Source of the DNA: Colwellia sp. Arc7-635
GTDB lineage: Bacteria > Pseudomonadota > Gammaproteobacteria > Enterobacterales > Alteromonadaceae
Reading direction: 5' to 3'
DNA: 64,000 nt
Assembly: GCF_003971255.1 (NCBI RefSeq)
Contig: NZ_CP034660.1
Location: forward strand, 434,001-498,000
Below the pieces are notes generated by a model. That model searched no databases. It saw only the letters and a program-made list of their open reading frames with translations, and was not told the DNA's origin. Shown here one piece after another: positions 52,262 through 64,000 of the stretch; the first letter of the stretch is position 1; the number at the start of each line of letters is the position of its first letter. Both the position numbers and the translations under genes were made by a program.

Positions 52262-53001
52262 ATGCGAAACGCACTATTCTTATTACCGGTGCTACTTCTG
52301 GCATTGGCGAGTCTTTGTTACATCATTACTTAGCCAACGACTATCAGGTTATTGCCTGCGGTCGTAATAAAGCAAAGCTTAAACAACTAGCTGATAGTCA
52401 TGCCGATGTTATTCCTGTTGCCTTTGATATTACCGATAGTGAGCAAATAAAAGCCGCTGCAGCTGAACTCAAGCAAATAGCCCGTATTGATATTTTAATG
52501 TTTAACGCCGGTGATTGTCGCTATATCGACAATGCCAAGGCTTTTGATGGCGAGTTGTTTGCTAGTGTTATCGCAACAAACCTGCAATCGTTAGGTTATT
52601 TACTACAGTATTTTTTACCAAAAGTGGATGCCGGAGGGCAGGTTGTCTTTATTAGCTCTAGTGCGACATTATTGCCATTTCCTCGAGCCGAAGCTTATGG
52701 TGCTTCTAAAGCCGGTATTGATTACTTAGCCAATAGCTTACGGATAGATTTAAAAGCGCAAGATATTGCTGTTACTCTCGTACACCCTGGTTTTATCAAA
52801 ACGCCATTAACGGATAAAAATGATTTTTCTATGCCATTTTTACTTTCCAGCCAACAAGCTGCTAGCCGAATTTATCAAGGTGTAAGCGCTAAAAAATCTT
52901 ATCTACATTTTCCCAAAAGATTAACCTTGTTATTGAAACTGCTCGCGCTATTTCCTGACGTTGTTTGGCAAAGTATTGCCTTAAAGAGTGAGAAAAAATG
53001 A
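52258..53001 (+). CDS. SDR-family oxidoreductase
   Basis: 247 residues. GATSGIGESLL at 11-21, FNAGD near 83, catalytic Ser in FISSSAT near 132 and YGASK near 146, then HPGFIKTPLTDK near 175. Classical SDR with NAD(P) binding. In the lipid-modification half of the operon; overlaps the next gene by 4 bp. Confidence 0.92.
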   Translation: MNAKRTILITGATSGIGESLLHHYLANDYQVIACGRNKAKLKQLADSHADVIPVAFDITDSEQIKAAAAELKQIARIDILMFNAGDCRYIDNAKAFDGELFASVIATNLQSLGYLLQYFLPKVDAGGQVVFISSSATLLPFPRAEAYGASKAGIDYLANSLRIDLKAQDIAVTLVHPGFIKTPLTDKNDFSMPFLLSSQQAASRIYQGVSAKKSYLHFPKRLTLLLKLLALFPDVVWQSIALKSEKK

Positions 53002-54269
53002 AACGTATCGCTATTATCGGATCAGGGGTGTCGGGCTTAACTGCCGCCTATTTATTAGCTAAAAAACATCAAGTCAGTGTTTTTGAAAAGGCTTCGGCTA
53101 TCGGCGGACATACCGCTACGGTAGATGTTGAAGTTGATAACACATGGTATGCCATCGACACCGGTTTTATTGTTTTCAATAATAAAACCTACCCAAATTA
53201 TTTAGCGTTATTAGACGAAATAGGTGTTGGTAAGCAAGAAACACAAATGAGCTTTTCTGTACATAATACGGATACGGGGATGGAGTATAACGGCCATAAC
53301 CTTGATACCTTATTTGCACAGCGTCGTAATATAGTGAAGCCAAAGTTTTGGTTACTGGTAAAAGAAATCCTCCGTTTCAATAAGCTTTGTAAGCTAAGTT
53401 ATCACGCCAAAGACTATAGCGAATCGCTAACGTTAGGCACGTTCTTACAAGATAATAAATTTAGTGACTATTTTGCTGAGCATTACATTTTGCCGATGGG
53501 GGCTGCGATTTGGTCTAGTTCTTTAGAGCAAATGGAACAGTTTCAATTCCAGTTTTTTGTTAATTTTTTCCATCACCATGGCTTACTTAATATTGCCGAC
53601 CGTCCTCAGTGGTATGTTGTACCAAAAGGATCGAGAAGTTACCTAGCACCATTGTCTCAGCCGTTTGCCGAGAATATTCATCTTAATGCTGATATTAGTG
53701 CGGTAACACGAGAAAATAATCAAGTTCAGCTGCACTTTGCTACAGGTGAAATACAAACGTTTGATGAAGTGGTATTAGCTTGTCACTCTGATCAAGCGCT
53801 GGCTTTACTTGGTGATGCGAGCAAGCAAGAACAAAATATATTGGGTGCGATACCTTATAGCGAAAATTCGGTAGTGCTACATACTGATGTGCGCTTGTTA
53901 CCGAAAAGAAAAAAAGCGTGGGCCAGTTGGAACTATCAATTAAGTTCGAACAGAACTAAGCCCGCCAGCGTCACTTATAATATGAATATTCTGCAAGGCT
54001 TGAATAGCGAACATACTTTTTGTGTCACTTTGAACCAACGCGAAGATATTGATGAAAGTAAAATTTTGCGAGAGTTTACTTACCATCATCCGGTTTTTTC
54101 AACCAGTACGATCAACGCTCAACGTCGACGCTTAGAAATCTGTGGTAAGCAAAATACTCACTATGCTGGCGCTTATTGGTATAGTGGTTTTCATGAAGAC
54201 GGTGTGCGCAGTGCCGTTGAAGTAGCACAGCGCTTCGACTGTTATTTAGATAAACAGCAATTGAAATAA
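52998..54269 (+). CDS. FAD-dependent amine-oxidase-like oxidoreductase
   Basis: 423 residues. FAD-binding IAIIGSGVSGLTAAYLL at 4-20 with FEKASAIGGHTATV, IDTGFIVFNNKTYPN near 52, and the closing HEDGVRSAVEVAQRF region. Belongs to the family adjacent to DUF1365 and CFA-synthase-like genes; homologues in Rhodobacter act on methylated fatty acids on the way to furan fatty acids. That function here is inferred by synteny. Confidence 0.88.
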   Translation: MKRIAIIGSGVSGLTAAYLLAKKHQVSVFEKASAIGGHTATVDVEVDNTWYAIDTGFIVFNNKTYPNYLALLDEIGVGKQETQMSFSVHNTDTGMEYNGHNLDTLFAQRRNIVKPKFWLLVKEILRFNKLCKLSYHAKDYSESLTLGTFLQDNKFSDYFAEHYILPMGAAIWSSSLEQMEQFQFQFFVNFFHHHGLLNIADRPQWYVVPKGSRSYLAPLSQPFAENIHLNADISAVTRENNQVQLHFATGEIQTFDEVVLACHSDQALALLGDASKQEQNILGAIPYSENSVVLHTDVRLLPKRKKAWASWNYQLSSNRTKPASVTYNMNILQGLNSEHTFCVTLNQREDIDESKILREFTYHHPVFSTSTINAQRRRLEICGKQNTHYAGAYWYSGFHEDGVRSAVEVAQRFDCYLDKQQLK

Positions 54270-54270
54270 C

Positions 54271-55116
54271 ATGATGATTGAGCATTCACCACATAGTCAT
54301 ATTTATCACGGCGAAATAAGTCATCGACGATTTTCGCCGAAAGCTCATAGCTTTAATTATCGCTTATATATGTTGGCGCTTGATGTTGATGAAATGCAGG
54401 CGCAAAAACGACCCAACGGTATTTTTGGCTTTTCATGGTTTAACTTGTTGAGATTTGTTGAAAATGATTACCTTAAAGGTGAACCCGGAAGCCTAAAGCA
54501 ACGTATAAAGAATAAAGTAGCGACATTATCGGCTTGTGAGAATACAAGTTCTAGCGGTGAAGATATAAGCCGTATCACCATGCTAGTGCAGGTTAGATGT
54601 TTAGGGCTCTATTTTAGTCCCGCAAATTTCTATTTTTGCTATGACGCTAATGATGACTGTAAACAAGTCTTGGTGGAGGTTAGTAATACGCCTTGGAACG
54701 AACGACATTATTATTTAGTGCCGCTAGATAATAATGAAGGTCATGACACACCACATACAACAGATAAAGACTTTCATGTTTCGCCTTTTATGGATTTAAA
54801 CATGCGTTACCAATGGCGTATTAAACCGCCAATGGTTAGTAGTTCAACATTGTTAGTGCATATAGAAAATCATCGGAAAATTTCTGATGATGGCAATAAA
54901 GATAGCACTGAGCGAAAAGTATTTGATGCCACCATGAGGCTAAAAAAATCACCTTTCACTCGATCTTCTTTATGGCGACTCTGGTGCAACTTACCGATTA
55001 TGACATTACAAATTGTACTCGGCATATATTGGCAAGCGCTAAAGCTTTTCGTTAAACGTATACCCTTTATTGGTTACCAGAAAGGTAAATCAACAAAACC
55101 TAAATCAGGAGTTTAG
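54271..55116 (+). CDS. DUF1365 family protein
   Basis: 281 residues. IYHGEISHRRFSPKAHSFNY near 11 and the later RCLGLYFSPANFYFCYD and VSNTPWNERHYYLVP segments are diagnostic of DUF1365. Always paired with the FAD oxidoreductase and CFA-like genes, here by a 1-bp gap and 1-bp overlap. Function not established; a lipid role is inferred. Confidence 0.93.
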   Translation: MMIEHSPHSHIYHGEISHRRFSPKAHSFNYRLYMLALDVDEMQAQKRPNGIFGFSWFNLLRFVENDYLKGEPGSLKQRIKNKVATLSACENTSSSGEDISRITMLVQVRCLGLYFSPANFYFCYDANDDCKQVLVEVSNTPWNERHYYLVPLDNNEGHDTPHTTDKDFHVSPFMDLNMRYQWRIKPPMVSSSTLLVHIENHRKISDDGNKDSTERKVFDATMRLKKSPFTRSSLWRLWCNLPIMTLQIVLGIYWQALKLFVKRIPFIGYQKGKSTKPKSGV

Positions 55117-56348
55117 TGGTGGAACAAGTTTCAGGATTAAAAATAAGAAAACAAGCCAACTGGCTAGATAAACGTTGTCGTGGCCTAGTTTTCTCAGTTT
55201 TAGCAAAACTTGAGTACGGGAAAATTGAATTGGTTGATAATGGCGAACGCTTTCTCTTTCCTGAGTTTGTCGAAAACAATTCCTTGCTCGGTCGTATTAA
55301 TATACATGATGCAAGCGTCTACCGTGACTTCGTTAAAGGTGGCAGTATTGGCGCAGCAGAAGCTTACATTGCGGGTAAATGGAGTAGCCCTGATTTAACG
55401 ATTGTGATTCGTATTTTTGCTCGTGCTCAGCAACAAACTGATGCGCTGGAGCAACAAAAGCCTTGGTTGACCAAGCTTAAATATGCCTTGCTACACAGTC
55501 GTAATCACAATAGTCAGGCTGGTTCTAAAAAGAATATTTTGGCGCATTATGATCTTGGTAATGAGCTTTACAGTCGTTTTCTTGATCCTGAAATGATGTA
55601 TTCATCGGCTATCTACCCTGATCAGCAAGCGAGCTTAGCACAAGCGCAGTTACATAAAATGTCGACCATTTGTGAAAGTTTAGACTTATCAGCTGATGAT
55701 CATCTACTGGAGATCGGCACAGGTTGGGGCGGTTTAGCCATTTATGCAGCACAGCAATACGGTTGTAAGGTTACCACAACCACAATCTCTGACGCCCAGC
55801 ATGCTTACGCTAAAAATCGTATTGAGCAGTTAGGATTAACAGATAAAATAACACTCTTAAAGAAAGACTACCGAGAACTCACCGGCGAGTACGACAAGTT
55901 AGTGTCAATCGAAATGATTGAAGCGGTTGGTTTTGAATACCTGCCAAGTTTTTTCAAACAGTGTAATGCAAGGTTAAAATCCGGTGGTAAGCTACTGATC
56001 CAGTCAATTACTATTGCTGATCAGCGTTTTGAGTATTACAAACGCAATGTTGATTTTATTCAACGCTACATTTTTCCTGGCGGTTTTTTACCTTCAGTGA
56101 CTGTGCTAACTAAGCACTTGACTGAATATACTGACTTAATCACTGAGTCAGTTAGTGATATCGGCTTAGATTATGCTAAAACGTTAGCACACTGGCGTGA
56201 AGCTTTTTTAACTTCTTGGCCAGAACTAACCCCGCTAGGTTATGACGAGAAATTTAAGCGCCTATGGCTTTATTACTTTGCTTATTGTGAAGGTGCCTTT
56301 CTTGAGCGCTCAACCAGTACGGTACATTTAGTGGCGAGAAAATCGTAA
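55116..56348 (+). CDS. Cyclopropane-fatty-acyl-phospholipid synthase-like methyltransferase
   Basis: 410 residues. SAM-binding LLEIGTGWGGLAIYAAQQYG near 194, LDPEMMYSSAIYP near 156, VSIEMIEAVGFEYL near 265 and NVDFIQRYIFPGGFLPS near 310, the CFA synthase hallmarks. GTG start immediately at the DUF1365 stop. It methylates unsaturated acyl chains of membrane lipids; whether the product is cyclopropane or a methylated/furan precursor cannot be read. Last gene of the operon, followed by a strong terminator. Confidence 0.93.
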   Translation: MVEQVSGLKIRKQANWLDKRCRGLVFSVLAKLEYGKIELVDNGERFLFPEFVENNSLLGRINIHDASVYRDFVKGGSIGAAEAYIAGKWSSPDLTIVIRIFARAQQQTDALEQQKPWLTKLKYALLHSRNHNSQAGSKKNILAHYDLGNELYSRFLDPEMMYSSAIYPDQQASLAQAQLHKMSTICESLDLSADDHLLEIGTGWGGLAIYAAQQYGCKVTTTTISDAQHAYAKNRIEQLGLTDKITLLKKDYRELTGEYDKLVSIEMIEAVGFEYLPSFFKQCNARLKSGGKLLIQSITIADQRFEYYKRNVDFIQRYIFPGGFLPSVTVLTKHLTEYTDLITESVSDIGLDYAKTLAHWREAFLTSWPELTPLGYDEKFKRLWLYYFAYCEGAFLERSTSTVHLVARKS

Positions 56349-56468: not shown

Positions 56469-58616
56469 TTAGTTTAATTTTTGCTGCTTTTGTTCGTTTA
56501 GCAGCCTAATAAAATAATCTAATTTAATAGGGCGGCTGAACACATAACCCTGTACCGAGTTACAATCATTTTTGACCAAAAAACTTAACTGCTCTTCGGT
56601 TTCCACCCCTTCAGCCGTAACACAAAGATTTAAGTTATGCGCCATTGCAATCACTGCACGTACTATCGCTTTATCGTTATCATCAGTCACAATTTCTTTA
56701 ATAAATGATCGATCAATTTTCAAGTAGTCTAAAGGCAGTTTTTTCAAGTATGACAATGAGCTATAACCGGTACCAAAATCGTCAACTGAGACGCTCATAC
56801 CAATCATTCTGACTTTACTTAGCAGCTTTTCTGCTACCAAGTAATCATCAACTAGCAAATCTTCAGTGACTTCTAATTCCAATAAGCACGGATTGACGTC
56901 GTTGTCTTTAATGCAAGCGCGTAGATGAGAAAATAATTTTTCATCCGTTACTTGGGCTGGTGAAAGGTTCATAGATATTTTAATATCAAAACCCAACAGG
57001 CTGATCTGTTTAGCCATTTGGCAAGTTCGACTTATAACCCACTCACCAATAGCAACGATTAAACCACTTTTTTCAGCCATGGGAATAAAATCATCAGGGC
57101 TAATGAGGCCTTTCTGCGGATGGTTCCAACGAATTAATGCTTCAGCTTTGTTGATACAGTTAGTTTTTATATCGATGATAGGCTGCAAATATAATTCAAA
57201 TTCGTTGTTTGTTATCGCTAGTCTTAATTCTTGTTCTAATTTTAGTAGATTATGTGAATCATCTTTCATTGATTTTGAGTAAAACAAGACAGAGTTCTTT
57301 TTGTTTTGTTTACCGTTATAAGCACTTAAATCAACAAATTTCATTAACTCTTCAACACTTTGTGCATCATGAGGAAAATTAGCGGCTCCGATACTAACGC
57401 TGATATGAAAGCTTTCGGCTTTACTGGTGTAGAAGGGCTTATTTATATTGTCGATAATACGATGTATCGCTGATTCGCAACCGACTTGGTTATCAATGTT
57501 ATTAAGAATAATTGCAAATTCATCACCGCCAACTCGAGCAATAAAATCCGAGGTTTTAATGACGCTACTGATGCGGTTGCTCAGCTCTACTAACAGTTTG
57601 TCGCCTTCTTCATGGCCATAGAATTCGTTATGCTGCCTGAAGTTATTGATATCCACATACAGTAGATAAAATGGTTTGCTTGACGTCACATGCTCTTCTA
57701 AGGTTTGCCAAAAAGAAAATCTATTCGGTCGTCCCGTTAACATGTCTTGTAAGGCCAGTTGCTCATTACGCTGCACTAAGTGTTTTATCTTACTGATGTC
57801 ATTGGCAAATATGATCCAATTCTCTACTTCATTGAGTTTGTTTTTTACCGGATAAAAGCCAATTTTTAACCACTTTAAGGTCGCTGGTGGTAAAATCCAG
57901 CATAATTCGCCATCCCAACTCGAGTTGGTTGATAATATTCGTTCATACTCAGGCAGCTGATTTTGCATCAAGTTAATGATGATATCTATTGGGCGGTTAG
58001 CTTGTGCATTCATCATTTTGTTTTGTTCAAAAAGGCTCAATGCAGCTGAGTTTTCAATACTGGTAGTGAAGTCTTGGCTAGTAATTAACACCGCGAACTC
58101 TGCGTTTTCAATGACTTTAGCTAAGGTTGCTAATATATTACTTTGCTCAGGTGAATTTTTTAAAATAGACAGTAATCGAGTGTGCAAATATTCATTTTTC
58201 AGAAAAAGGCGATCGTAAGATAATAAAACTTCACGTGCTAGCTGTTTGGTTTTTTGTTGTAGAGTAAAATTCTCTAATTGATTAGCTATCACTAAAAGGT
58301 TCTGTTGATCATGCTTTATTGCGATGGCTTCTAAGTGTAGTTCTTTATGATTACTGGTGATTTCAGTCCACAAGCCAGATCGTAACTTTCCATTTTCAGC
58401 TTCATGCCATATTAGTCGAGCATCGATGAGAAAATCGTGTAAAAAGGGTGTTTCTTCGCTAATAATAAAATTTTGTCGATTTTTAGCTTGTGGAAATAGA
58501 TCATTTACCCATGCACTATCGCCTTCAACCCATGTCATGGTGCCTTTGTCTATGTCGACTACTTCGAGCACGACTTGCTCTAAAGCATTTAAAACTTTAT
58601 TTAGTAGTGATGTCAT
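56469..58616 (-). CDS. GGDEF-EAL protein (c-di-GMP synthesis/hydrolysis)
   Basis: 715 residues, no membrane segment seen. The N-terminal 290 residues contain PAS-like stretches (one about 165-280). GGDEF domain with intact VGGDEFAI near 360 but KTSD instead of the RxxD inhibitory site; EAL domain with AEALIRWNHP near 480 and DDFGTGYSSLSYLKKLPLDYLKID near 610, so both activities look possible. The start overlaps the Ras-like GTPase gene by 20 bp: last gene of that operon and probable effector or output. Confidence 0.9.
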   Translation of the reverse strand: MTSLLNKVLNALEQVVLEVVDIDKGTMTWVEGDSAWVNDLFPQAKNRQNFIISEETPFLHDFLIDARLIWHEAENGKLRSGLWTEITSNHKELHLEAIAIKHDQQNLLVIANQLENFTLQQKTKQLAREVLLSYDRLFLKNEYLHTRLLSILKNSPEQSNILATLAKVIENAEFAVLITSQDFTTSIENSAALSLFEQNKMMNAQANRPIDIIINLMQNQLPEYERILSTNSSWDGELCWILPPATLKWLKIGFYPVKNKLNEVENWIIFANDISKIKHLVQRNEQLALQDMLTGRPNRFSFWQTLEEHVTSSKPFYLLYVDINNFRQHNEFYGHEEGDKLLVELSNRISSVIKTSDFIARVGGDEFAIILNNIDNQVGCESAIHRIIDNINKPFYTSKAESFHISVSIGAANFPHDAQSVEELMKFVDLSAYNGKQNKKNSVLFYSKSMKDDSHNLLKLEQELRLAITNNEFELYLQPIIDIKTNCINKAEALIRWNHPQKGLISPDDFIPMAEKSGLIVAIGEWVISRTCQMAKQISLLGFDIKISMNLSPAQVTDEKLFSHLRACIKDNDVNPCLLELEVTEDLLVDDYLVAEKLLSKVRMIGMSVSVDDFGTGYSSLSYLKKLPLDYLKIDRSFIKEIVTDDNDKAIVRAVIAMAHNLNLCVTAEGVETEEQLSFLVKNDCNSVQGYVFSRPIKLDYFIRLLNEQKQQKLN

Positions 58617-59115
58617 CGTTTGTGCACCTCAACAATAGTTTCGCCAACGTTAAAAACATTTCCTCTACATTTGCACCTGTCTTCGCGCTAGTCGAAAACT
58701 GCAGGTCAAATAAGTTTTTGTAGGCTTCATTTTCACTGTTATCTAAATGCCATGTTGCGGGTAAATCACTTTTATTTACCGCTAATATTGCTGGGCAGTC
58801 GGTGACTTGTCTTGCGAGGGTATTAATGTCGATGCCTTCAAGCAAAGATGACGATCGTGTTTGGTCGACAACGATAATGTATCCTGATGCACCACGTAAG
58901 TATCGCTCTTGAAAAACATTGTAACTATCATTACCTTCCATATCCCATAGCATGAACTGGACTTCATCGTTTTCTATGGTGATAGTTTTTTTGTCAATTT
59001 TAACGCCAATAGTAGTGAGGTATTTTTCACTAAAAATACCTTGTACATACTGTTTGACTAGACTTGTTTTTCCTACGCTAGATGCACCTAAAAGGCATAT
59101 TTTTTTCTGAATCAC
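58597..59115 (-). CDS. Ras/Rab-like small GTPase
   Basis: 172 residues, a single G domain: G1 GASSVGKTSL near 10, switch I with TTIG, G3 WDMEGND near 59, G4 NKSD near 107, G5 SAK near 140. Closest in look to bacterial Rab/Roc-like GTPases. In G3 the residue aligned with Ras Gln61 is Asn, suggesting slow intrinsic hydrolysis. GTG 59115 is chosen because a perfect GGAGGTG lies 7 bp upstream; a longer frame to 59142 would cover it. No lipidation Cys at the C-terminus. Confidence 0.9.
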   Translation of the reverse strand: MIQKKICLLGASSVGKTSLVKQYVQGIFSEKYLTTIGVKIDKKTITIENDEVQFMLWDMEGNDSYNVFQERYLRGASGYIIVVDQTRSSSLLEGIDINTLARQVTDCPAILAVNKSDLPATWHLDNSENEAYKNLFDLQFSTSAKTGANVEEMFLTLAKLLLRCTNDDITTK

Positions 59116-59192
59116 AGTGTCACCTCCATATTTGACCGCCAAGCTCTATTAAAATACTACTCTTATTTACGACAGAGTCACCCTATAATTTA

Positions 59193-60953
59193 TCACTCAT
59201 GATTAATGTATATTACGTTAAACATTACAGTTCTTGCCGTACTGCTAATCCCAACAATATCTATTTGTCCTAAACCTAAAACATACATTTTACTTCGATC
59301 TAAACCTTTGTCTCTTAGAATGTCAGCACTATTATTCGCTCTTTTCATACTGAGAATATCATTAGTTGCTTTATTGCCGGTGCTATCACTGCTGCCCATA
59401 ATTAATAAACCAAAATTAATATTAAGAGCATCAGCAAGCTGTTCTAATTGTTGTATGTATTGAAAGAGTCGCTGTAAGGACAATTGCATTTCAGGCGTTA
59501 TATCTTCACTTGCGATAGCAAAATTTAATTGGATTGATGCTATGCGGCCAATGAGGTCGTCAAATAACGCCTGCTTAACTTGCTCGCTTGTTGTCAAAGA
59601 TACGGGTGTTGTCTGTTGTAACTGTTCGGTGAGTAAGTTTTGGTCTTGAGTAAACCCGGCAATCGTTAAGTTTGTGATTAATTGCTCAGTCTCAGTAATG
59701 CCTAGTGTACCAACAAGACTGAGTACATCGTCTTGCCAAGCTAAGTTAACACTAGGGAAATTTTTTATAATACGTTGAGCACGTAGTTGTAATATTTGTC
59801 GATCAAATGAATGAAAGTTACGCTCGATGAGTTTTAACTGTGTTGTATCTACGCCATTACTTTTCAACCAGTCGGCAATGTCTAAGGCGTCAGGGTCTCG
59901 CAAAACATCTAAACTTATATCGTTAAGGTTAGCAATATTGAGTTGCTTTACGATGACACCTGGCTGAGCATCTAAGAGCATTATTTTTTCATGCAACTGT
60001 GAGCTCTTCAACCAATTAAAACTTTGGTAGCCAGCATAAATAGAGATGATGACAACGATTGCCCAAGCAAACCAAGGGCGCTTTTTCTTACTGTTTGTTT
60101 CAGTTTTTTCTTCTGATAAAAGACAGTCTCGCAACAAGCTATCGGAGGCGGAAAAATATTGATTATCACCATCAAAGTTATTCAGCTCATCATGATATAA
60201 GCTATGAATGTTTTCTAAGGTCAGCTGTAGCTGATCGTTTATTCGTTGTGGCGGGTTACCGATAACGGCAGCAACAACCAGAGCACTGGGACCTGGCTTA
60301 ATTAACAAATTAAAATTATCAGTACTAACGGATTGAAGTTGTTCTTTTTGCCCTTCATGACTGGGTGAAAAGGAATCTCCAACAAAATCATTAATCGCCG
60401 TTAACATGGCTGATACAATATCAGCGTCACTGTTATCTTTGTCATCCAATGCGATGGTATTTAATAATAGCCCGGTTTCTCTGTGGATTAGAAAAACATG
60501 TTCAACACGATAAGCGAAAGTTTGTGAGGCGGCATATTGTGCATAGCTAACACCACTGCGTCGTGCTTCAAAACGCCACTTTAAGCCTTTTATGGTTAAA
60601 CTATTTTCGAGTAACTGATTAGTTTTTTCCATAAAGTCGCTGAGAAAAGCAGCAACAGATTTTCTCACCAAACTACCCACGAGCGGGTATAGCGAACTCA
60701 CCATTTGTTCACTATTATGGGCTACCGAGTTTTTAACTGAGTCTTCCACGAATGGCTGTAGTACTTTATTAACAGAGTTATCTTTTTTTTGCCTATCATG
60801 TAGTGCTTCAGTAATGACATCAGCGACTATATTGCGCGCATCTTTTTTTATGCACTCTGTTATTCTGCGGTTTTCTTGCCCCAGTATTAGTGAGCGTATT
60901 TGTTCTAGTTGTTGCTCTGACTCAGCATGTTCTGCTGTAGTATCAGTTGGCAT
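59193..60953 (-). CDS. Roadblock-like/OmpA-domain transmembrane protein
   Basis: 586 residues. Cytoplasmic N-terminus with LEQIRSLILGQE near 16 and helices to about 120; a roadblock/longin-like domain at about 145-265 (YRVEHVFLIHRETGLLL, DADIVSAMLTAINDFVGDSF); one membrane helix at about 290-310; BON-like periplasmic segments (DDVLSLVGTLG near 410); and a C-terminal OmpA peptidoglycan-binding domain (SSDSTGNKATNDILSMKRAN near 525, with the conserved Asp and Arg). It thus links cytoplasm to cell wall and may regulate the GTPase encoded next, as MglB roadblock proteins do for MglA. Start overlaps the preceding stop. Confidence 0.82.
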   Translation of the reverse strand: MPTDTTAEHAESEQQLEQIRSLILGQENRRITECIKKDARNIVADVITEALHDRQKKDNSVNKVLQPFVEDSVKNSVAHNSEQMVSSLYPLVGSLVRKSVAAFLSDFMEKTNQLLENSLTIKGLKWRFEARRSGVSYAQYAASQTFAYRVEHVFLIHRETGLLLNTIALDDKDNSDADIVSAMLTAINDFVGDSFSPSHEGQKEQLQSVSTDNFNLLIKPGPSALVVAAVIGNPPQRINDQLQLTLENIHSLYHDELNNFDGDNQYFSASDSLLRDCLLSEEKTETNSKKKRPWFAWAIVVIISIYAGYQSFNWLKSSQLHEKIMLLDAQPGVIVKQLNIANLNDISLDVLRDPDALDIADWLKSNGVDTTQLKLIERNFHSFDRQILQLRAQRIIKNFPSVNLAWQDDVLSLVGTLGITETEQLITNLTIAGFTQDQNLLTEQLQQTTPVSLTTSEQVKQALFDDLIGRIASIQLNFAIASEDITPEMQLSLQRLFQYIQQLEQLADALNINFGLLIMGSSDSTGNKATNDILSMKRANNSADILRDKGLDRSKMYVLGLGQIDIVGISSTARTVMFNVIYINHE

Positions 60954-61489
60954 TATAGTTGGTCATCTTCTAAATTTGTTGCCATCGTTGCGAGTAATTT
61001 AGCGAGTGTTTTTCTATCGGTTTTCGATGAGGTTAAGTCTTTTGAAACAGATTCAAGATGAGTTTTTAATTGTGCAAGCTGATCATTGAAGTTACGGGTA
61101 AGTGACTGACTCTCACTGTCTAATGCCTGTTCTATATTTTTAAAGTCTTGCTGAGTAGCGCTAGCAAACATTTCGTGTTCGGAAGTTAAACTGGTAAGGT
61201 TTTTTTCAATCGTTGTTTCGTTATCTTCATGGCTTTTATCTGAACGTTGTATTTGCTGTTCTATCTCAGCAAAACGTTCGCTAATATTATCTTGCATTTT
61301 GTCTAGACGATCGGTGAAATTAATATTTTGCGTGTTAAGCGCTTGTTCCATGTCGTTACGCGTTGAAATAATCTGTTTTTTAAGTTGCTGCTCAGCTACG
61401 CCAAAAACAATCTGCCGTAACTGATCTAGCTCATTGACAGGGGTTGTGTCTTCTTCGGGAGATTTTTTGATATTTTTATGATTAGGCAT
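60953..61489 (-). CDS. Coiled-coil protein, unknown
   Basis: 178 residues, soluble, almost all helical with heptad patterning from about 40 to 170. The N-terminal LDQLRQIVFGVAEQQL near 22 resembles LEQIRSLILGQE in the next protein, a likely shared docking motif or common origin. First gene of the operon, stop/start overlap with the OmpA gene. No family recognised. Confidence 0.75.
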   Translation of the reverse strand: MPNHKNIKKSPEEDTTPVNELDQLRQIVFGVAEQQLKKQIISTRNDMEQALNTQNINFTDRLDKMQDNISERFAEIEQQIQRSDKSHEDNETTIEKNLTSLTSEHEMFASATQQDFKNIEQALDSESQSLTRNFNDQLAQLKTHLESVSKDLTSSKTDRKTLAKLLATMATNLEDDQL

Positions 61490-61919: not shown

Positions 61920-64000
61920 TTACTTATTATTGATAATAAAAATATGATCCTTGCTGAGTTTTCTATTCTTACTTTGCCAAGCTGCTCCACATGCAATTAA
62001 GAACAAAATACCCGCTAAGCTATAATAGATAAAGTCGTTCGGCTCTACGGTTTGTGCACTTTGTTTATCAAGTTTTTGGCCTTCAACTTGCTGTTCTGGT
62101 TTAGTTTCTGATGAAGAGTCATCTTTTTTCTCTACATTTTTTGCGGCAAGTTGTTGGTTGTTCTTTGCTTGCAGGGCTTTTGTGCTAGCGGCCATAGCTT
62201 CTAGAGTTTTTGCAGCCAGTGGCGCTAAACCAAAACCTTCGGCTAGTTCATTTACATGCGCTTTTACCGCGTCATTTAAAATCACTAAATCATTGTTATT
62301 AACCACGGCAACGTATTGTTCAACAAGTTGCTTCAAACGCTCAGGGTCTGCTTGCCAATAGTATTTACGCTCTGCTTCGAGCATACGTTCCATCATACGG
62401 GCGAAGGCGGCAGGGTTAATATCTTTAAACCATTCGTTGAGCTTCAGGTCGAGTTTGTCATTAACATAAATGTCTAGGTATTCATCCCATTGATCGTTTC
62501 TGATCAGGTTAGGATCAACAACTTGCCAGCCAAAAAAGTTATCCATTTTTGAGGCTAATGACACGGCACCCGAATAACCTTCTTTTTGTAGCTCTTTTAT
62601 CCAGCGAGGATGAAACATGCGAGTACGTAATTCTTTGGCAAGAAATAAACCGGCATCTTCGGCTTTGGCATTTTTAGCGTCACGTAAGTTGGCTATTACC
62701 ATGTCAGGACTTTTACCATCAATGTTACGTACCGCTAAACTGAGTGCGCCAAAGTATTCAAACGGGTCATCAGTACTTAGCATACCAAATAAATTTGAAG
62801 AACGAGCGAACATGGCAATGTCAGTGCCTGATAATTGTTTGGCGTAAAGTTGTACTTCTTTACCGTCAGCATTTGCCGCTTTTTGTCCCCAGCGGCTATT
62901 GTCAGCACCGAAGAAGTAGCCCATTTTACCTAAATAGTTATCAGATATTTTTTTATCATCTTCCCAGGTATCACTGGCCCAAGCCGCGTCATCTACACCG
63001 GTACCGTAATCACCTGATTGATTTGAAAAAATTCGAATAGTTGATAAATACTCTGCTTCTTTTTCATCAACACCTTCGGCCAGTAAGTCAGCTTTTACTT
63101 TTTCACTATTTTGCCAAATCGAGTTGTTGTCTTCTTTTAATGCCGCGACCTGATTGACCGCTTTTGCTAGCATTTGCATGACATTAGGAAAAGCATCACG
63201 GTATAAACCTGTGGCTGACACCACGACATCTATACGTGGACGCTTTAATTCGCTGTAAGGAATGATTTCGGTGCCAATAACACGGCCGCTTGCACTCCAT
63301 TTTGGCTTAACACCCATGGCATAAAGTACTTGGGATTCAAGTACGCCGTAGTGACGCATGGTTTCAATTGACCATAACGAGAAGGCCATTTTGTCAGGGT
63401 AACGTTGATGCTTTTGATAGTAATTAGCGATCATTTGTTCTGTCAGTTCTTTGCCTTGCTCGAAAGCTGCTTGGGTTGGAACGCGAGCAGGGTTAAAGCC
63501 AAATAAGTTATAGCCAGTAGCTAAAGATTCGGGGTGGCGTATTGGATCGCCACCTGATTTTACCGGGATATACTTAGCACTCAAGAAGTCGACCATGGCA
63601 TCGAGTTCGTGGATACTTGCCATGCTTTGATAAAGCTTTTGACCTCGTGCAATGTCAGCTTGCAGTTCTGTTGTTAGTTCGGTAATTGGCACCGGGCGTT
63701 CGGCTGATTGATCTGCAGCATCAATGATATAATTTTTAACCGTTAAGTAACCTGATAAACGGCTGACATCATTTTCTTCAACTGTTTCAGAGCGGGTGAT
63801 ATTATCTTTTTCATGCCCTTTTTCATGCCTTTTTTCATGGTAAGTATGGCTATGAGCAACACTTTCGTCACTTTCGTTAGTGCCGTCGCCGTGATGCTCA
63901 CCAATTAAGCTTTCACCGTAGTTATCATGTTCAAACTCACTAGCCCTTGCAGTAAAGTCGTTGCCCAGCATTTGTACTAAGGTTGATATCGTTAAGGCTT
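61920..64000 (-). CDS. CobN/HmuS-like chelatase large subunit, partial
   Basis: The frame is open to the window edge; about 693 C-terminal codons are present of an expected 1,300 or so. CobN/BchH landmarks: NLFGFNPARVPTQAAFEQG, RPRIDVVVSATGLYRDAFPN, EYLSTIRIFSNQSGDYGTGV and KMGYFFG. Two departures from classical CobN: a His/Glu/Asp-rich insertion near the left end of the visible part (HEKRHEKGHEKD) and a C-terminal single membrane helix (FIYYSLAGILFLIACGAAW). Cobaltochelatase is the default call; the membrane anchor also fits the HmuS heme-dechelatase branch. No cobS/cobT in view. Confidence 0.85.
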   Translation of the reverse strand, partial: ALTISTLVQMLGNDFTARASEFEHDNYGESLIGEHHGDGTNESDESVAHSHTYHEKRHEKGHEKDNITRSETVEENDVSRLSGYLTVKNYIIDAADQSAERPVPITELTTELQADIARGQKLYQSMASIHELDAMVDFLSAKYIPVKSGGDPIRHPESLATGYNLFGFNPARVPTQAAFEQGKELTEQMIANYYQKHQRYPDKMAFSLWSIETMRHYGVLESQVLYAMGVKPKWSASGRVIGTEIIPYSELKRPRIDVVVSATGLYRDAFPNVMQMLAKAVNQVAALKEDNNSIWQNSEKVKADLLAEGVDEKEAEYLSTIRIFSNQSGDYGTGVDDAAWASDTWEDDKKISDNYLGKMGYFFGADNSRWGQKAANADGKEVQLYAKQLSGTDIAMFARSSNLFGMLSTDDPFEYFGALSLAVRNIDGKSPDMVIANLRDAKNAKAEDAGLFLAKELRTRMFHPRWIKELQKEGYSGAVSLASKMDNFFGWQVVDPNLIRNDQWDEYLDIYVNDKLDLKLNEWFKDINPAAFARMMERMLEAERKYYWQADPERLKQLVEQYVAVVNNNDLVILNDAVKAHVNELAEGFGLAPLAAKTLEAMAASTKALQAKNNQQLAAKNVEKKDDSSSETKPEQQVEGQKLDKQSAQTVEPNDFIYYSLAGILFLIACGAAWQSKNRKLSKDHIFIINNK
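63806..63840. repeat. 12-bp tandem repeat coding the His-rich insertion
   Basis: CTTTTTCATGCC occurs twice in tandem plus a third near-copy; on the minus strand it codes HEK-rich repeats in the cobN-like protein. Confidence 0.85.

Follow-up and report, generated by a model that had tools for sequence, protein, structure and literature searches.

Group 1 Rup GTPases were defined by Wuichet and Søgaard-Andersen in 2014 (PMC4316618) and are prokaryotic small GTPases judged there to be very similar to Rab, Ran, Ras, and Rho. According to the available passages of that paper, their gene neighborhoods encode a coiled-coil protein, a protein whose unknown domain is often followed by a transmembrane helix and an OmpA domain, and an output protein, which is "typically" a diguanylate cyclase/phosphodiesterase fusion or a histidine kinase and has an invariant glutamine in its N-terminal region. 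In the same passages, no Rup member had been characterized at the time, and the glutamine missing from the GTPase was possibly supplied in trans. Rup is mentioned in the available part of PMC4915359, and the word also occurs in PMC13015309 and PMC4736243; literature searches that left most subscription journals out of reach found no experimental study of any Rup GTPase. Here, we describe a further Group 1 Rup system, located in a stretch of 64,000 nt of Colwellia sp. Arc7-635 (NZ_CP034660.1, positions 434,001 to 498,000), referred to below as the window, the numbering of which is used for all positions. On its minus strand, from 61489 to 56469, four closely packed genes encode a coiled-coil protein (CC), a protein with a membrane segment and an OmpA domain (OMPA), the Rup GTPase, and a GGDEF-EAL output protein, in that order (list of open reading frames [ORFs] and Pfam). 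This operon is a real, conserved signaling module that had been predicted earlier. What is new relative to the 2014 passages, within the searches made, are the predicted longin/roadblock and PAS-like folds and the cyclase, HD, and sigma54-activator outputs; in the available main text of PMC4316618, adenylate, HD-GYP, and sigma-54 are absent and cyclase appears once, for diguanylate cyclase.

As in the published systems, so far as those passages describe them, the same four genes stand together, the Rup lacks its G3 glutamine, and the N-terminal region of the output protein holds an invariant one; the unknown domain is predicted here to be of the longin/roadblock type and the output N-terminal region to be PAS-like, with two types. 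The GTPase (58597 to 59115, minus strand like the other three) is a Ras superfamily protein of 172 aa (Pfam Ras, E 9.7e-31), within the 150 to 240 aa of the group. Its ORF was listed as 58597 to 59142 with a TTG start, and the GTG at 59115, behind GGAGGTG, is most likely the better one, giving the 172 aa. The G3 motif reads WDMEGND (58927 to 58947), with Asn replacing the catalytic Gln, and the otherwise Ras-like P-loop, NKxD, and SA(K) motifs are retained. The neighboring CC gene (60953 to 61489, 178 aa; ORF and family consensus) appears to encode a cytoplasmic coiled-coil protein, judging from its sequence and from Pfam coiled-coil matches that were all below cutoffs. The OMPA gene (59193 to 60953, 586 aa; ORF, Pfam, and predicted structure) combines the unknown domain, a membrane helix, and a C-terminal OmpA domain in one protein. 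The output gene (56469 to 58616, 715 aa; ORF and Pfam) has a glutamine, Gln125, in its N-terminal region, which may be that of the 2014 logo. The GTPase thus appears to fit the published Group 1 Rup system, an assignment made by description.

The genes are tightly spaced, CC and OMPA having one base in common, OMPA and the GTPase being separated by 77 nt, and the GTPase gene overlapping the GGDEF-EAL gene by 20 nt. The first-pass annotation, made from the letters alone, had recognized four tightly packed minus-strand genes here, and all the ORFs and Pfam families are indeed present, with the GGDEF-EAL gene lying beyond the interval that it had marked. It knew of no established function for the set, which had in fact already been described in the 2014 passages, with its function uncharacterized at that time. 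The source genome is a single contig of 4.74 Mb, in which the four other matches to the Ras profile are weak and lie within much longer open frames.

To follow the set in related genomes, we searched 118 genomes of the window's family with OMPA. Matches were obtained in 42, covering the N-terminal part or the full length in 32 and only the OmpA domain in 10. All 31 further family loci (the 32 except the window) keep the order CC-OMPA-Rup-output, so that the four-gene set is not a chance association; one of them (L066) has OMPA split into two ORFs, and in another (L037) the predicted output ORF starts late. OMPA, Rup (E ≤ 1e-25), and the type A PAS-like domain of the output protein (E ≤ 1e-5) occurred in the same 32 genomes and in none of the other 86, with Rup and type A each at one place per genome at the same thresholds. 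The Rup and type A profiles were built partly from these loci, and the informative part of this result is the absence from the 86 other genomes. The OMPA domain was found in 50 of 398 genomes of a phylum sample, including all 7 that had type A; the other 43 had no type A at the E threshold, and many of those examined have other outputs. In an order sample, OMPA matched 9 of 247 genomes.

Twenty regions were drawn from the 50 OMPA-positive phylum genomes together with one genome of the order sample. Genome contigs were also scanned, which gave at least 585 pattern matches; among the matches listed, 552 encode a relative, and 80 loci were kept. These loci come from Pseudomonadota including Zetaproteobacteria, Cyanobacteriota, Acidobacteriota, Nitrospirota, Thermodesulfobacteriota, Chloroflexota, Planctomycetales, Gemmatimonadetes, and others. 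In total, 127 unique loci were compared; this number counts the 31 family loci but not the window, and near-copies remain in it. CC lies directly upstream of OMPA in 116 of the 121 loci with at least 900 nt of room. Rup follows OMPA on its strand in 106 of the 110 loci where there is room, and a PAS-like domain is present no more than 300 nt after Rup in 105 of the 114 with room. The synteny that the first-pass annotation expected in other genomes is therefore present both in the family (31/31) and in this survey. Gene content, order, co-occurrence, domain families, and conservation are the basis on which the module rests. Two related genomes (G132 and G140; loci L205, L206, and L208) have, besides a full operon elsewhere, another Rup gene whose immediate neighbor encodes a type A protein, which in G132 matches an HD-type phosphodiesterase, and no CC or OMPA gene was recognized in the stretch fetched around these second copies; Rup and the output protein therefore look like the minimal pair.

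Some loci depart from this arrangement or from their label. In two Desulfomonile metagenome-assembled genomes (MAGs; L156 and L178), CC-OMPA is present and Rup, accompanied by a type B domain (the second type of PAS-like domain), is encoded on the other strand, and in L182 CC-OMPA is present and Rup is several kilobases away. A MAG labeled Klebsiella pneumoniae (L192) has a Rup operon that groups on the tree with an Acidobacteriota (Chloracidobacterium) sequence, and its label is probably wrong.

As a tentative reading, to which we give not quite an even chance, Group 1 Rup operons would encode a signaling module in which a wall-anchored longin domain controls Rup and the output protein is both effector and GTPase-activating protein (GAP). 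We infer the interactions, the nucleotide exchange, the GAP activity, and the sensing by the OmpA domain as follows. OMPA would sit in the inner membrane, with its OmpA domain holding peptidoglycan and its longin/roadblock domain facing the cytoplasm. The longin domain and CC together would bring Rup to the membrane and control it, through nucleotide exchange or by recruiting it, in response to the state of the envelope. The Rup of the window ends in DDITTK and lacks a cysteine in this region that could carry a lipid anchor, so that it is probably recruited to the membrane by a partner. Rup-GTP would then engage the output protein at its PAS-like N-terminal domain and alter the activity of this protein, in the window most likely cyclic di-GMP (c-di-GMP) hydrolysis by the EAL domain. 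The output glutamine would take the place of the one that Rup lacks, following the in-trans idea in the passages of PMC4316618, and the effector would therefore double as the GAP terminating the signal. With the predicted longin partner and effector domain, what had been the prediction of a single paper would become a cycle open to testing, in which the fragments and the residue concerned are specified.

A bolder form of this reading, which we regard as doubtful, would make these operons a bacterial Rab/longin cycle, with the wall-anchored longin protein as the exchange factor and any plugged-in enzyme as effector and GAP through a glutamine-donating PAS-like domain. If true, one conserved switch would couple envelope state to c-di-GMP phosphodiesterase, cyclase, kinase, or sigma54-activator outputs through a regulator fold that is otherwise familiar mainly from membrane traffic in eukaryotes.

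The cytoplasmic domain of OMPA (residues ca. 137 to 278; 60120 to 60545) was modeled with AlphaFold2 on 85 relatives. In the model, residues 137 to 252 form α-β-β-α-β-β-β-α, which includes the β-β-α-β-β-β-α core of longin/roadblock folds, and further helices reach residue 275; the mean predicted local distance difference test (pLDDT) score was 81.8 overall and 64 to 76 around residues 171 to 210, with a predicted TM-score (pTM) of 0.55. A Foldseek search with this model gave eight matches at E ≤ 0.001, three Mon1-Ccz1 chains and five chains of clathrin-type adaptor complexes, followed at lower rank by TRAPP, SRX, Ragulator, and roadblock structures, all of which we take to have longin or roadblock folds. 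We therefore predict a longin/roadblock fold, which upholds as a prediction the one that the first-pass annotation had placed at residues 145 to 265. The closest PDB sequences to Rup are the eukaryotic Rabs Rab-35 and Rab-5A, and the set resembles eukaryotic Rabs with longin exchange factors (Mon1-Ccz1 and TRAPP) in pairing a Rab-like GTPase with a candidate longin-type partner. It differs from them in that the partner is a membrane protein encoded by a single gene, with no vesicle system, and its exchange role is a candidate one.

The same fold could be read in another way, with the longin domain as a GAP or co-GAP like MglB, the PAS-like domain as an effector only, and the glutamine as a structural residue. 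We consider this unlikely, even if roadblock structures are also among the Foldseek matches and the roadblock protein MglB is the GAP of MglA in the available source passages, since roadblock structures rank below the Mon1-Ccz1 and adaptor-complex chains and none of 71 small Rups was coupled to an MglB homologue in Table 1 of PMC4316618 (available part). The first-pass annotation had likened the pair to MglA/MglB, and the two systems do share a small GTPase beside a roadblock-like fold. However, the GTPase belongs to another family, fitting Group 1 Rup with eukaryotic Rabs as its closest matches among solved structures, and the roadblock-like domain is fused to a membrane segment and an OmpA domain. 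No Robl_LC7 gene was matched in the source genome (E ≤ 0.001), and the OMPA protein did not match Robl_LC7 in Pfam at E ≤ 1. With no such match in the genome and a G3 motif of the Rup type, we rejected an MglA/MglB assignment, and nothing pointing to the proposed switch for cell polarity was found. The actinobacterial conservons (Cvn) likewise have a single operon for a GTPase, a roadblock protein, a signaling enzyme, and one more protein (PMC4316618, available passages); their GTPase is of the MglA type, their roadblock protein of the MglB type, and their enzyme a histidine kinase.

The likely membrane-spanning segment of OMPA covers residues ca. 294 to 312 (60018 to 60074) by hydropathy. The 19-mer from residue 294 has a mean hydropathy of 1.45, and another from residue 214, inside the predicted fold, reaches 1.53. 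KKKR precedes the segment, which suggests that the N terminus is inside. The OmpA peptidoglycan-binding domain follows at residues 478 to 566 (59256 to 59522; PF00691, E 6.3e-8), and the predicted roadblock part is, as the first-pass annotation proposed, linked to it by this hydrophobic segment. The window protein retains the D and R of D..LSxxR, a motif of recognized meaning in OmpA domains. Among 125 OMPA homologue entries (locus L133 counted as two pieces, and one L194 entry being a split piece), a strongly hydrophobic 19-mer between residues 240 and 480 was found in 118, the D..LSxxR pattern in 74, and the OmpA domain in 103. No Pfam domain was found in six of nine OMPA homologues scanned. 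CC and OMPA resemble each other at their N termini (LDQLRQIVFG and LEQIRSLILG, with the common motif L..IR.LLG; hhalign of the two families over 34 columns, P 1.6e-4, probability 51%), and this motif is perhaps a shared docking site. At its C terminus, CC has the motif KTDR..LA.

The anchored longin domain might also be a mere docking platform, with OMPA as a passive wall anchor that places Rup and the output protein at the wall and leaves the nucleotide state unchanged. Longin/roadblock proteins do serve as platforms, Ragulator and adaptor chains among the matches being examples, and in some lineages the OmpA domain is variable or missing. A switch GTPase without its catalytic residue would, on the other hand, be expected to need regulators, and no better candidate for an exchange factor was recognized in the operon, which makes the platform quite improbable in our judgment.

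The N-terminal domain of the output protein (residues 1 to 152; 58161 to 58616), called type A, was modeled with AlphaFold2 on 52 sequences (pLDDT 85.6, pTM 0.69). Foldseek matched this model mostly to PAS domains (best E 7.3e-4, one match at E ≤ 0.001), and we predict it to be PAS-like, with Gln125 (58242 to 58244) in a long helix after the core. Type B is called PAS-like here by name, type A being the one with a predicted structure. An hhalign comparison of types A and B (P 3.4e-4, probability 38%, against P 0.14 to 0.78 for six control pairs) is only suggestive of homology, and an iterative profile that merged both types drifted and was left out of the counts. Five proteins have type B followed by type A in one chain, and in two Nostoc loci (L148 and L160) a type B domain that stands alone separates Rup from a type A histidine kinase. 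Neither the OMPA domain nor the output domain had a convincing sequence-level relative in the PDB.

Of the 125 Rup members with a residue in the column of Ras Gln61, 1 has Gln. The output domains, in turn, have a column that is Gln in every aligned row (type A, 64 of 64; type B, 37 of 37), and in a wider set, with weak and incomplete matches excluded, Gln is found there in 129 of 130 domains (type A, 73 of 74; type B, 56 of 56). The output glutamine agrees with the in-trans idea without proving it. Conserved signaling residues are often found in the helices after PAS domains, as the proposal of an MglB-like GAP with a structural glutamine would have it; against that proposal, the Gln stands at the corresponding place in both PAS-like types.

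In the window, the output protein continues with a GGDEF domain (57294 to 57755; Pfam E 2.6e-35, motif intact) and an EAL phosphodiesterase domain (56529 to 57233; Pfam E 4.1e-76, examined motifs intact). Across the window's clade, E(A/V)L and DDFGTG of EAL are kept in 32 of 32 aligned members and GGDEF is canonical in only 15, so that c-di-GMP breakdown is probably the conserved activity, and c-di-GMP, which the first-pass annotation had named as the possible output, is a likely one in this clade. PAS domains are common sensors and the GGDEF is noncanonical in 17 of the 32 members, from which part of the output protein could be receptor-like and the flow of information reversed: the PAS-like domains would sense a ligand and report to Rup, which would act on the wall or motility through OMPA and CC. 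The EAL motifs kept in all 32 and the cyclase, HD, kinase, and sigma54-activator families found as outputs elsewhere speak against this reversed flow, which we consider very unlikely.

The classes of output identified with Pfam were GGDEF-EAL, class III adenylate/guanylate cyclase, histidine kinase, HD_5/HD (nine proteins), and sigma54 activators (three). The labels assigned over the 127 loci, most of which rest on profiles built in this analysis, were GGDEF in 33, cyclase (CYC) in 26, histidine kinase (HK) in 25, HD in 9, sigma54 activator (S54) in 3, CYC plus HK in 3, and none in 28. Two HD proteins that were scanned match a c-di-GMP phosphodiesterase model below its cutoff, which makes HD-GYP-like a fair but unproven description of the HD outputs. 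At the thresholds used, downstream ORFs of L137, L183, and L189 and one beside the operon of L106 had no Pfam family, and those of L150 and L153 had PAS families only. On a Rup+OMPA tree of 77 labeled loci with six output labels (built by a quick method, with SH-like approximate likelihood ratio test supports only), at least 11 changes of output are needed, the least possible being 5 and the shuffled mean 41.4; the labels are therefore also clustered by descent. The starred branches force at least 2 changes for CYC, 3 for HK, and 3 for HD. Thus, the Rup/OMPA core stays while the output enzyme is swapped, which suggests a general bacterial way to wire envelope state to different signaling systems. 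In yeast, a Ras-type switch works with adenylate cyclase, a nucleotidyl cyclase, and in Zetaproteobacteria and some other genomes a nucleotidyl cyclase likewise neighbors Rup; the input domain differs, and the output of the window is not a cyclase. In cyanobacterial operons (L165, L172, and L173), a type B-cyclase protein and a histidine kinase occur together, the cyclase of L165 (9238 to 9477) looking like a short remnant.

Several results weigh against wall-anchored longin control of Rup with the output protein as effector and GAP. The longin match is modest (best Foldseek E 3.2e-4, pTM 0.55), and the query-normalized TM-scores are 0.21 to 0.35 in the 50 rows listed, which probably stems from N-terminal helices without a match. 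Sequence profiles (Pfam and PDB) did not detect the predicted longin fold of OMPA, and this domain could be an exchange factor, a GAP, or a mere scaffold. An OmpA domain was undetected in 22 of the 125 entries, among them three proteins of Dehalococcoidia whose chains stop at the membrane segment; wall sensing is therefore not universal, and we rejected universal wall anchoring. In G479, a genome of the window's family outside the 118 and one of the 43 phylum-sample genomes without type A, CC-OMPA-Rup is followed by no recognized type A or B domain in the 5 kb fetched downstream, and 9 of the 114 loci with room have no PAS-like domain within 3 kb after Rup. The conserved glutamine could have a structural role in the helix that follows the PAS-like core. 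The Rup of L040 has its own Gln while its output protein keeps the conserved one, and the type A domain of L194 has Arg instead of Gln while its Rup reads GKD. With these two exceptions, a strict compensation between the Rup and output glutamines is unsupported.

A viral origin of the set was also considered and dropped: a scan of viral contigs with the OMPA domain gave 263 pattern matches and no relative, and in PHROGs Rup and CC had no match and OMPA matched through its OmpA domain only. Around the operon, a terminator-like hairpin followed by T's (61866 to 61839) lies between the four genes and an upstream gene; with two terminator-like sites found in the stretch and 3.9 expected in shuffles, the hairpin is weak evidence alone. 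The upstream gene, on the same strand (61920 to 64000), is CobN/magnesium chelatase-like and apparently runs past the end of the window. On the other side, three consecutive plus-strand ORFs (52998 to 56348) presumably encode amine-oxidase-like, DUF1365-like, and cyclopropane-fatty-acid-synthase-like proteins.

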